Shown piece after piece: positions 32,614 to 57,071 of a stretch of DNA of 64,000 nt. The position numbers and the translations under genes are program-made. Under the pieces are notes generated by a model. It was not told where the DNA came from. It did not search any database and saw nothing but the letters and a program-made list of their open reading frames with translations. The DNA comes from Bradyrhizobium sp. ISRA430 (GTDB lineage: Bacteria; Pseudomonadota; Alphaproteobacteria; Rhizobiales; Xanthobacteraceae): positions 2,356,001 through 2,420,000 of the forward strand of contig NZ_CP094516.1 in assembly GCF_029909975.1 (NCBI RefSeq), given 5' to 3'. Numbering within the stretch: position 1 is the stretch's first letter; every line of letters begins with the position of its first letter.

Positions 32614-33474
32614 ATGAACGCCTCGCCCTCCCCATCCGTCGCACCGGCCGGTTCGGCCGGGCCCGGCGTACTGCGGACGCTGCTCGGACGACCGATCCCG
32701 GCGGTGATGGGCGTGCTCAACATCACCCCGGATTCCTTTTCCGACGCCGGACAGTTCATGGCGCCCGACCAGGCGCTGGCGCGGGCGCGGGCGATGATCG
32801 CTGATGGCGTCGATATCATCGACATCGGCGCCGAATCCACCCGACCCTACAAGGGTGCCCAGCCGGTGACGGCGGCGGACGAACTCGCCCGGCTGAAGCC
32901 GGTGTTGGCCGAGGTGGTGGCGCTCGGCGTGCCCGTGTCGATCGACAGCATGAAGGCGGAGGTCGTGGCTTTCGCGCTCGACCAGGGCGTTGCCATCGCC
33001 AACGACGTCTGGGGCCTGCAACGAGACGCCGGCATGGCACCACTGGTCGCCGCGCGAAATGTCCCTGTCATCGTCATGCACAATCGCGACAGCGTCGATC
33101 CCGCCATCGACATCGTGCAGGACATGGTCGCATTCTTCCAGCGCTCGCTCGACATCGCGGCGAAGGCCGGCATCGCACGCGACATGATCGTGCTCGATCC
33201 CGGCATCGGCTTCGGCAAGACGGCGGAGCAGAGCATGACGGCCTTGGCGCGGCTCGACGCACTCAGCGCGCTCGGCCTGCCGATCCTGGTCGGCGCCTCG
33301 CGCAAGCGCTTCATCGCATCAGTGTCGCCGTCGGAGCCACAAGAGCGACTCGCCGGCTCGATCGCCGCCCATCTCCTCGCCGCGCAGCGCGGCGCCAGGA
33401 TCATCCGGACCCATGACGTCGCCGAGACGCTGCAGGCCCTGCGGGTCGCGGCCGCAATCGAGAGCAAGCAATGA
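32614..33474 (+). CDS. folP: dihydropteroate synthase
   Basis: This 286-residue cytoplasmic TIM-barrel enzyme joins 6-hydroxymethyl-dihydropterin diphosphate to p-aminobenzoate, giving dihydropteroate in folate synthesis. Signatures are GVLNITPDSFSDAG, the pterin-site DIIDIGAESTRP, NDVWGLQRD, IVMHNRD, ILVGASRKRFIA and a C-terminal IIRTHDVAETLQAL. Length is normal. ATG 32614 has only a weak ribosome site. Its stop overlaps the start of folB (ATGA), so the two are translationally coupled. This is the target of sulfonamides in the family. Confidence 0.96.
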   Translation: MNASPSPSVAPAGSAGPGVLRTLLGRPIPAVMGVLNITPDSFSDAGQFMAPDQALARARAMIADGVDIIDIGAESTRPYKGAQPVTAADELARLKPVLAEVVALGVPVSIDSMKAEVVAFALDQGVAIANDVWGLQRDAGMAPLVAARNVPVIVMHNRDSVDPAIDIVQDMVAFFQRSLDIAAKAGIARDMIVLDPGIGFGKTAEQSMTALARLDALSALGLPILVGASRKRFIASVSPSEPQERLAGSIAAHLLAAQRGARIIRTHDVAETLQALRVAAAIESKQ

Positions 33475-33839
33475 CCGATACGATCTTCGTGACCGGCCTC
33501 GTGATCCATGCCCGCCACGGCGTGATGGAGCACGAGACCGAGGTCGGTCAGCGCTTCGTGCTCGACCTCGAGCTCTACACCGATTTGTCGGAGTCCTCCC
33601 GCACCGACCGGCTCGCCGACACCGTCTCCTATTCCGATGTGGTGGCAACCACGACGGCTGCATTCAAGAACACCAATTACAAGCTGCTGGAGCGCGCCGC
33701 CGGCGCGGTCGCCGACGCCATCCTGTCGCACTTCCCGCGCATTCGCGCCGTGAAGGTCACCGTGCACAAGCCGCACGCGCCGATCGCGGCGATCTTCGAC
33801 GACGTCGGCATCATGCTGACGCGGTCGCGGCATCCCTGA
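33471..33839 (+). CDS. folB: dihydroneopterin aldolase
   Basis: This 122-residue enzyme converts dihydroneopterin to 6-hydroxymethyl-dihydropterin and glycolaldehyde. FVTGLVIHARHGVMEHE carries the active-site Glu region, followed by GQRFVLDLEL, DTVSYSDVVA, LLERAAGAVADAIL and KVTVHKPHAP with the catalytic lysine. It overlaps folP by four bases. The gap to folK (137 bp) is filled by two long palindromes, unlike the tight folP-folB junction. Confidence 0.95.
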   Translation: MTDTIFVTGLVIHARHGVMEHETEVGQRFVLDLELYTDLSESSRTDRLADTVSYSDVVATTTAAFKNTNYKLLERAAGAVADAILSHFPRIRAVKVTVHKPHAPIAAIFDDVGIMLTRSRHP

Positions 33840-33844
33840 GATGG

Positions 33845-33920
33845 CGAGTGGCCCGATCCTGACATTCGCACAGACTCGCGGAGCCACGTTTGCGAATGTC
33901 AGGATCAAAAGGGCCACTCG
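33845..33920 (+). repeat. 26-bp-arm palindrome between folB and folK
   Basis: The left arm 33845-33870 (CGAGTGGCCC then GATCCTGACATTCGCA) is an exact complement of 33891-33920 except for four extra A residues at 33907-33910. The 20-base loop contains CTCGCGGAGC, the sequence that opens the next palindrome. It could form a very stable RNA hairpin or be an inserted palindromic element. Confidence 0.85.
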
Positions 33921-33933
33921 TACATTATTGTTT

Positions 33934-34009
33934 GCTCGCGGAGCGGATTTGACGTTCGCAGAAGGAAGCTCGGCAAATGGTTAGCGAACGTCAAATCCGC
34001 TCCGCGAGC
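33934..34009 (+). repeat. 26-bp perfect palindrome spanning the folK start
   Basis: 33934-33959 (GCTCGCGGAGC, GATTTGACGTTCGC at its end) is exactly complementary to 33984-34009. The 24-base loop, 33960-33983, contains the folK ribosome site GAAGGA and the ATG at 33977. The right arm encodes FolK residues about 3-11. In mRNA, the start site would be displayed in the loop of a 26-bp stem. Confidence 0.88.
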
Positions 34010-34492
34010 GCGCTGATCGCACTCGGCGGCAATGTCGGCGATGTCCGCGCGACGTTCAAAAAGGCGATCGCCCACATCTGCAGCATGGCGCAAGCCGCGC
34101 TGTTGGCGCGCTCATCAGACTATACGACCCCGCCCTGGGGCGACGAGGAGCAGGATCCCTTCATCAATGCCTGCATCGAGATCGAGACGAACCTCGATCC
34201 GCACGCGCTGCTGTTCGTGATGCAGAAAGTCGAGCAGAAATTCGGCCGCACGCGGACCAAGGAGCGGCGCTGGGGACCGCGCACGCTCGACCTCGACATG
34301 ATCGCCTATGACGATGTGGCGCTGCAGACGCCCGACCTGACGCTGCCACATCCGCGCCTGTTCGAGCGCGCCTTCGTGCTGGTACCGCTCGCCGAAATCG
34401 CGCCGGACCGCCTGATCGCCGGGATCAAGGTCCGCGATGCGCTCGCCAGCGTCTCAACGCAAGGAATTGAGCGGCTGCCGGATACCGGCTAA
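33977..34492 (+). CDS. folK: 6-hydroxymethyl-dihydropterin pyrophosphokinase
   Basis: This 171-residue enzyme transfers diphosphate from ATP to 6-hydroxymethyl-dihydropterin, supplying FolP. ALIALGGNVGDV is the usual N-terminal strand. YTTPPWGDEEQDPFINAC and TRTKERRWGPRTLDLDMI (the HPPK signature with the metal aspartates) follow, then LPHPRLFERAFVLVPLAEIA. ATG 33977 follows GAAGGA by ten bases. The first eleven residues (MVSERQIRSAS) come from a palindrome arm and look like an added extension compared with a usual start just before ALIALGG. Confidence 0.94.
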   Translation: MVSERQIRSASALIALGGNVGDVRATFKKAIAHICSMAQAALLARSSDYTTPPWGDEEQDPFINACIEIETNLDPHALLFVMQKVEQKFGRTRTKERRWGPRTLDLDMIAYDDVALQTPDLTLPHPRLFERAFVLVPLAEIAPDRLIAGIKVRDALASVSTQGIERLPDTG

Positions 34493-47573: not shown

Positions 47574-48061
47574 GAACCAGCCCGTTGGGAGAAAACACGG
47601 ACGCGGAGGACGCAACGCTCACGAATCAATTTAGACGCGACATGAATATTTTGTGGAAAAGTTTTGACTTGTCCAGATGCGACGCGGCCGTCGTCATCAG
47701 ATACCGCGAGTCTACGGAGTTTGCAGCCGATTTGCCGTCAAGCCTCACACAAGCATAGCGGTCTTGCAGCCCTCGGGGCGAATCGCTGACGAGGGACCGC
47801 AGGCGCGAGCTCAACCAAAAGCTGATATCGCAAGGAGGCCTTCAAGGAATAAGTCCCCCCCAAAAAGAAAAGACCCGTCCGGGGGGACAACCGGACGGGT
47901 CGAGCCATATGGGCGCTTGGGGTGGATGGGCGCTCGCGCCTGATATGACCGATGGGGAGGGATGACCGCTCCCACATATTTTGGTCGTGGCAGCGGGCTG
48001 AACGTTCAACGCAGCGTTCGAATTTTTAACCTTCTCGCCACGTGCATCTTTGTCGCAGCAG
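47574..48061. other. 488-bp intergenic region with a minus-strand terminator
   Basis: Between the minus-strand subtilase stop and the TIGR03809 start I see no convincing gene. A strong minus-strand terminator lies at 47862-47901, so the subtilase transcript would have a 3' untranslated part of about 190 nt. A bulged hairpin (GCGGT/ACCGC and CCCTCG/CGAGGG) lies near 47755-47797. A promoter for the TIGR03809 gene must lie in the AT-rich part near 47600-47670. Confidence 0.5.
47862..47901 (-). terminator. Rho-independent terminator on the minus strand
   Basis: GACCCGTCCGG (47872-47882 as read on the plus strand) is exactly complementary to 47891-47901. Read on the minus strand, the 11-bp stem is followed by TTTTCTTTTTG. 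It ends the subtilase operon or an RNA from its 3' region. Confidence 0.85.
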
Positions 48062-56829: not shown

Positions 56830-57071
56830 GGGTCCGCTAATTAAAATTCGCCGTCGTGCCGGACAAGCGCAGCGAAGCGGAGCGCAGATCGGGGACCCCC
56901 GCGCGAGCGCTTTGCGCTCGTCGCGATAGCCAGAGGAAGTGGTTTGGCGAAGACTCGCGGTTACCGGTTCGCGCGACAACTTCTCCCTGGGTTTATGGGT
57001 CCCGGCCTTCGCCAGGCCTTCGCCGGGACGACGGTGATTAAACATTCGCAGTCGTCCCGGCGACGGCCGAG
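56830..57071. repeat. decayed intergenic palindromic repeats
   Basis: The gap between enoyl-CoA hydratase and the convergent acetyl-CoA hydrolase-type gene holds segments such as GGTCCCGGCCTTCGCCAGGC and GTCGTCCCGGCGACGGCCG, which pair imperfectly. They look like remnants of common Bradyrhizobium repeats. No gene. Confidence 0.5.

Follow-up and report, generated by a model that had tools for sequence, protein, structure and literature searches.

The two adjacent hairpins that separate folB from folK in Bradyrhizobium sp. ISRA430 very probably represent one copy of a non-autonomous mobile twin-hairpin element that has captured the start of folK. This reading follows up a preliminary description of the locus, made from the DNA letters without database searches, and concerns a 64,000-nucleotide stretch of contig NZ_CP094516.1 (positions 2,356,001 to 2,420,000 of the forward strand), to which we refer as the window and whose numbering is used throughout. 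The element is apparently undescribed so far; papers listed in searches of an open-access library, including PMC5082802, PMC3733652 and PMC2573895, gave no description of it. What looks like an odd pair of palindromes is a member of a mobile family that extends across many genera.

Including the tetranucleotides at both ends, the element occupies positions 33845 to 34008 of the forward strand (164 bp, CGAG to CGAG), as delimited by split alignments, empty sites and the family alignment. Hairpin 1 (33845 to 33920, forward strand) comprises 26 pairs; its left arm (33845-33870) faces a right arm (33891-33906 and 33911-33920) that is split by an AAAA bulge at 33907-33910 on the inner arm, and its 16-nt inner part appears in the inverted-repeat listing. 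Hairpin 2 (33934 to 34009, forward strand) likewise comprises 26 pairs. Its two arms of 26 nt each (33934-33959 and 33984-34009) are 100% complementary and enclose a 24-nt loop (33960-33983). Of the 17 inverted-repeat pairs that the listing gives for the window (within 120 bases), no other perfect one has arms as long. The preliminary description had reported two adjacent 26-pair hairpins, the first with a 4-base bulge and the second perfect, and the sequence, the inverted-repeat listing and the folding bear this out to the base. The predicted RNA fold of 33830-34030 reaches -116.6 kcal/mol (z -12.2) and that of hairpin 2 alone -53 kcal/mol (z -9.2), values that none of 200 shuffles equalled in either case. 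The kinship of the two hairpins through TGAC(A/G)TTCGCA and CTCGCGGAGC is as originally described, both stretches being common to the two. We likewise find in the loop of hairpin 2 the ribosome-site-like stretch and the start codon of folK that had been placed there: the loop contains AGAAGGAAG and an ATG at 33977.

The folB-folK junction of related bacteria argues for an insertion. We individually read 83 such junctions (the best 80 of 94 named loci, together with those of the window and of genomes G072 and G027), of which 79 are empty and four are filled. Since G072 and Bradyrhizobium sp. CCBAU 43298 carry the same element on contigs of equal length, 20,297 bases, and are apparently one strain, the four filled loci stand for three genomes. 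Many of the empty loci read ATGGCGAGCGTGCTGATCGC. GCGAG, which spans codons 2-3 of the ancestral folK gene, occurs there once, as in genome G036 and many other loci, and flanks the filled site on both sides (33844 to 33848 and 34004 to 34008, both on the forward strand); the net insertion amounts to 160 bp. When 60 genomes of the genus were searched with the junction, 59 matched, and among the matches listed only those of ISRA430 itself and of G027 align through; the remaining genomes give separate folB and folK matches, or just one of them, with parts that overlap by 5 bases in several genomes, e.g., in G036. A presence/absence comparison of this junction had been proposed beforehand, together with a search for compensatory changes in the arms. 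Its outcome, 79 empty loci of 83, supports, together with the dispersed relatives and the reading frame, the suggestion that a palindromic element has invaded a coding start. As to compensation, one compensated pair distinguishes the copy in the window from that in G027. One of the loci collected (L235) stems from a record titled Frankia sp. RB7 and has a Bradyrhizobium-like folB-folK region with 86% FolK identity; this record is probably misnamed or contaminated.

The element has left its mark on the reading frame of folK. Upstream lie a FolP-type pterin-binding domain and FolB, whose gene (33471 to 33839, forward strand) was assigned from the ORF listing and the domain search. The folK ORF as now read extends from 33977 to 34492 on the forward strand and opens with MVSERQIRSASALIALGGN; its product is an HPPK (PF01288) whose domain match begins at residue 14, counted from the ATG at 33977. 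Because the HPPK domain sets in at residue 14, because the frame offers no ATG, GTG or TTG other than this one from its last upstream stop to the domain, and because this ATG is retained in all three filled genomes, we take the element-borne start as very probably used. Judged from the sequence, translation of folK thus appears to begin at an ATG supplied by the element, and FolK appears to be eight residues longer at its N-terminus, which reads MVSERQIRSASA-LIALGGN and places 12 residues before LIALGGN, as compared with 4 in MASV-LIALGGN (hand count). The lengthening of FolK that the preliminary description had put forward is accordingly predicted to amount to these eight residues.

The ancestral folK start now opens a 47-codon leader ORF (33841 to 33984, forward strand, from its translation), called, like the genes around the G189 copies and the CTAG sites of the window discussed below, by a simple ORF plus GC3 rule. 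Its TAG stop (33982-33984) lies just past the new ATG, and the last 8 bases of the leader are shared with the new folK frame, as they also are in loci L350 and L171, G072 included. The ribosome-site-like AAGGAAG of the loop (33962 to 33968, forward strand) was identified by eye. In G027 (locus L066) the corresponding stretch reads AGGAGGAAG, with a ribosome-site-like AGGAGG; there the A run is one base shorter and the leader stops 27 nt ahead of the ATG.

A second start has been captured in the same way. In genome G049, a gene of the YdjC family has its ATG in the same loop of the element and reads MTANVKSAPLRRIW; the protein of an empty relative (alignment of 95% identity) begins with MSETSPRRIW, and the old start of the filled copy runs into the TAG of the element, old frames being read by eye in both. 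The site in the closest empty relative is GCCGC and differs from both ends of the filled copy. This makes two independent instances of a selfish repeat taking the place of a gene start, one of which concerns folate synthesis.

Sequences matching the element are present in at least 42 of 195 genomes of the genus, and in at least 55 of 149 genomes and at least 24 of 47 genera of the family, the genome of ISRA430 being counted in each case. It is also matched by seven plasmid records from several Rhizobiales, including Aminobacter, Martelella, Rhizobium and Agrobacterium. For ISRA430 itself, no second copy is found among the matches listed; apart from the copy and its own reverse matches, these are 15-27 bases long with E-values of 0.11 or worse, and a hairpin pattern retrieves this copy alone. 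In G189, left arms (within 3 mismatches) number at least 113, as do right arms (within 2 mismatches), compared with 0 in a reversed control; these counts include truncated copies and count a few perfect palindromes twice. Left-arm-only fragments in this genome are truncated copies, and the two that were inspected adjoin ordinary ORFs. From 44 G189 copies (four outliers and the rows of L107, also from G189, were excluded), a consensus of 168 bp was derived that runs from CTAG to CTAG, with sharp edges and random flanks; its arms seldom deviate, its loops frequently. The element ends in CTAGTGG...CCACTAG, and in the consensus its terminal inverted repeats are alike at 18 of 25 positions (hand count).

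Some copies are nested in or adjoin others with which they share the end tetranucleotide (L131 and L165; L365 and L370). At L165 (1311-1637), the spacer of one copy contains a further twin hairpin of a sister type, bordered by CTGG and CTAG, as in a nested insertion. Three loci (L146, L133 and L167, the latter at 1311-1385) hold hybrid single hairpins that combine the left part of hairpin 1 with the right part of hairpin 2, as though recombination had taken place across the element. Set against the mobile reading, no fresh insertion that separates near-identical strains was encountered.

The sites at which copies reside reveal a preference. None of 41 G189 copies lies inside a called gene, while a called gene stops inside the element in 16 of them. 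In 14 of these 16, the stop codon is the TAG of the terminal tetranucleotide (10 CTAG, 2 GTAG, 2 TTAG), and five of the 41 also hold the start of an ORF under the same rule. The target preference often lands on TAG stop codons, and it does so in genomes in which CTAG is rare: the window contains 23 CTAG where its base composition predicts 209, which makes the tetranucleotide about nine times rarer than expected, and 13 of these 23 lie within called ORFs, including seven that are the stop codons of those ORFs. At the bamD-recN junction (named by protein-family assignment), six of nine aligned relatives have precisely CTAG at the empty site; this CTAG equals the left end, the right end in well-kept copies is CTAC, and a degenerate copy in G132 has CTAG on both sides. 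Other targets deviate. At folK, GCGAG takes the place of CTAG as the target, and it is matched by the inner feet of both hairpins, which read CTCG. The copy at the fliQ-fliR junction has the ends CGAA and CGAC with matching feet. Empty relatives of a copy at lysA read GGCGGG and GGCGCG, and we draw no target from them. Where G189 insertions have unlike ends, the aligned relatives proved too diverged for the target to be read.

Ends and feet covary in a specific manner. Among 74 copies (84 rows less ten from the bamD, lysA and folK loci, removed by hand), the inner foot of hairpin 1 shares 15 of 33 deviations from CTAG at the left end (shuffles: mean 1.5, maximum 5), and the foot of hairpin 2 shares 20 of 41 at the right end (mean 1.9, maximum 7). 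Left and right ends share a deviation in 4 of 52 (mean 1.8, maximum 6). With so few deviations common to both ends, an ordinary target duplication cannot be made out clearly for the family as a whole. The covariation can mean either that the foot reads the target before insertion or that the foot follows the flank afterwards. The latter course is directly visible, in that copies at the same locus differ by compensated pairs: an A-T to G-C change at lysA (L065 versus L286), three pairs among the fliQ-fliR copies, and the one pair in the folK copy mentioned above.

Taken together, the observations describe a short, protein-less element of Bradyrhizobium and related genera, about 168 bp long, that inserts for the most part at tetranucleotides resembling CTAG, whereby the outer foot of each hairpin consists of a target-like tetranucleotide. 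In an ancestor of the three sampled genomes, and presumably in a single event, such an element jumped into the GCGAG of folK codons 2-3. Its second loop supplied a ribosome-site-like stretch and an in-frame ATG that is probably used as the start, and folK would have survived the insertion because this loop carries both. Ribosomes that still start at the old ATG probably unfold the hairpins, terminate at the TAG closely following the new ATG and initiate again there; with its leader stop 27 nt before the ATG, G027 would not maintain such coupling in the same form. A later use of the hairpins in folK translation through this putative leader coupling is possible. The element was presumably moved in trans by a transposase that acts on its hairpin ends.

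The preliminary description had offered, as an alternative origin, an RNA switch that sets folK translation apart from that of folP-folB. A regulatory leader that arose in place would account for the very stable structure around the ribosome site and for the compensated pair between the window and G027. We nevertheless consider this origin very improbable, as the structure is absent at 79 of 83 loci, the same structure is dispersed over unrelated loci, and no Rfam family matches at its gathering score (three matches to microRNA models, obtained at a loose threshold, are far below gathering). A different matter is whether hairpins of mobile origin are now kept as mRNA structures that serve stability, processing or translational coupling at folK and at other operon junctions, a proposal to which we give some credence, though distinctly less than even. 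It draws on the fliQ-fliR copy, which is present in ten genomes: paired columns deviate there in 29 of 1220 cases (2.4%) and unpaired ones in 100 of 590 (17%), with third codon positions at 68 of 610 (11.1%) in fliR and 39 of 470 (8.3%) in fliQ. The corresponding figures are 7 of 396 and 8 of 119 for the folK copy in three genomes (third codon positions, 25 of 264), and 6 of 275 and 19 of 124 for the lysA copy in two genomes plus a truncated third. The bamD copies show little contrast (16 of 866 paired, 20 of 473 unpaired), and those of G050 and G132 are degenerate, which speaks against the proposal. In the counts of paired and unpaired columns, a few short pairs beyond the two stems are included as paired, the L285 row was shortened, and L294 was left out as a separate insertion. 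Eleven kinds of stem change are seen at fliQ-fliR, of which three are compensated; the one-sided ones comprise four G.U on the gene strand and two A.C. Selection on structure at some junctions is likely, but four against two are too few to decide on a function at the RNA level. The family-wide tally of one-sided changes in 84 copies (A.C 58, G.T 49) follows the orientation of the element regardless of gene direction and hence provides no test, and selection for mobility or correction of one arm by the other could equally hold the stems. With its stems held and its loops drifting in ten genomes, the fliQ-fliR copy makes the choice between junk, mobility signal and kept mRNA structure directly testable. 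In G073, locus L294 carries a twin-hairpin insertion at the same fliQ-fliR junction in the orientation opposite to that of the ten-genome copy, apparently a separate event.

How the element moved can be narrowed down to two guesses. DDE transposases of the IS630 or IS5 type duplicate a short CTAG or TA target. An enzyme of this kind is our first guess, held at somewhat below even chances: it would fit the CTAG empty site at bamD-recN, the CTAG on both sides of the degenerate copy in G132, and the GCGAG on both sides at folK. It sits less well with ends that share deviations no more than shuffles do and that each covary with their own inner foot, and our searches recovered neither a parent transposon nor an insertion sequence with these ends, the profile scan having covered Y1 transposases alone. 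Our second and rather unlikely guess is a folded single strand that is moved by a Y1/HUH-type enzyme, following the logic of IS200/IS605 or of RAYTs, with the inner foot pairing with the target. Foot-to-end covariation without end-to-end covariation would be expected from such a process, and the match of the bamD empty site with the left end alone, next to CTAC on the right of well-kept copies, agrees with it; the right end of the G132 copy at this locus is, however, CTAG. We had favored movement of the IS200/IS605 type at first for the covariation of ends and feet, and lowered it since compensation can arise after insertion (L065 versus L286), which explains the covariation as well, and since G189 is devoid of Y1 matches. 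At an E-value of 0.001, the Pfam Y1 transposase model found no match in the genomes of ISRA430, G189, G027, G324 and G304, two of which (G189 and G324) are rich in copies. Y1 genes are present in G153 and some other genomes, and ten Y1 loci that we retrieved contained one weak fragment of the element (E 0.011). Still less likely, and offered as speculation, is a comprehensive variant in which the hairpin feet read the target tetranucleotide by base pairing, a CTCG foot in place of CTAG retargeting the element to the CGAG of folK, in which the landed element serves as a translation-start cassette, and in which the stems are then selected at operon junctions.

An autonomous partner was sought among truncated left-arm copies, ordinary ORFs and Y1 genes, and these candidates were dismissed, the Y1 genes being either absent or without a flanking element. 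By eye, no transposase-like product was noticed among the ORFs listed for 15 copy-bearing stretches, which come from G189 and G324 and hold one to three copies each.

The non-autonomous twin-hairpin element that we favor resembles MITEs in being short, protein-less and dispersed in multiple copies, in its terminal inverted repeats (18 of 25 positions) and in the short repeated target at folK. It departs from them in that each end is an arm of its own long hairpin, with an inner foot complementary to the end tetranucleotide. A MITE-like target duplication is suggested by GCGAG, twice at the filled and once at the empty folK site, and by CTAG at bamD, while the ends lack shared deviations. REPINs are paired REP hairpins mobilised by RAYTs. 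With these REP/REPIN sequences (GTAG and CGTC families), the element has in common its palindromic nature, intergenic location, paired inverted hairpins and a tetranucleotide at the foot, but REP units measure 20-40 bp and are tagged by GTAG, whereas the hairpins of the element are about 77 nt long with CTAG feet, a distinction drawn from descriptions; identity with one of those families is unlikely. Unlike in REP/RAYT systems, no associated Y1 gene was found in the five genomes scanned. An imperfect inverted repeat at 57015-57068 of the window (23-nt arms, 87%) looks REP-like by eye and unlike the twin-hairpin element. The palindromic elements of Rickettsia (RPEs) insert in frame within the ORFs of several genes. 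The likeness to them that the preliminary description had drawn is upheld for behavior, in that a coding sequence takes up a palindromic element, and we claim no relation in sequence; it fails for location, given that none of the 41 G189 copies resides within a called gene and that both coding captures seen are at gene starts. RIMEs, another family of repeats, are characterized by their size and their palindromes. In the accessible part of PMC2573895, RIME and ABC repeats are presented as intergenic repeats of rhizobia with a conserved structure. None of the seven matched plasmid records is from Sinorhizobium, and RIMEs were compared by description alone. Br-REP1 and Br-REP2 are, like the element, palindromes repeated in Bradyrhizobium at gene ends, but their consensus, as printed in the accessible part of PMC5082802, resembles the element nowhere by eye. 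Elsewhere in the window, positions 47872-47973 of the reverse strand match the Rfam family RF01723 (Rhizobiales-2 RNA) with 94.3 bits.
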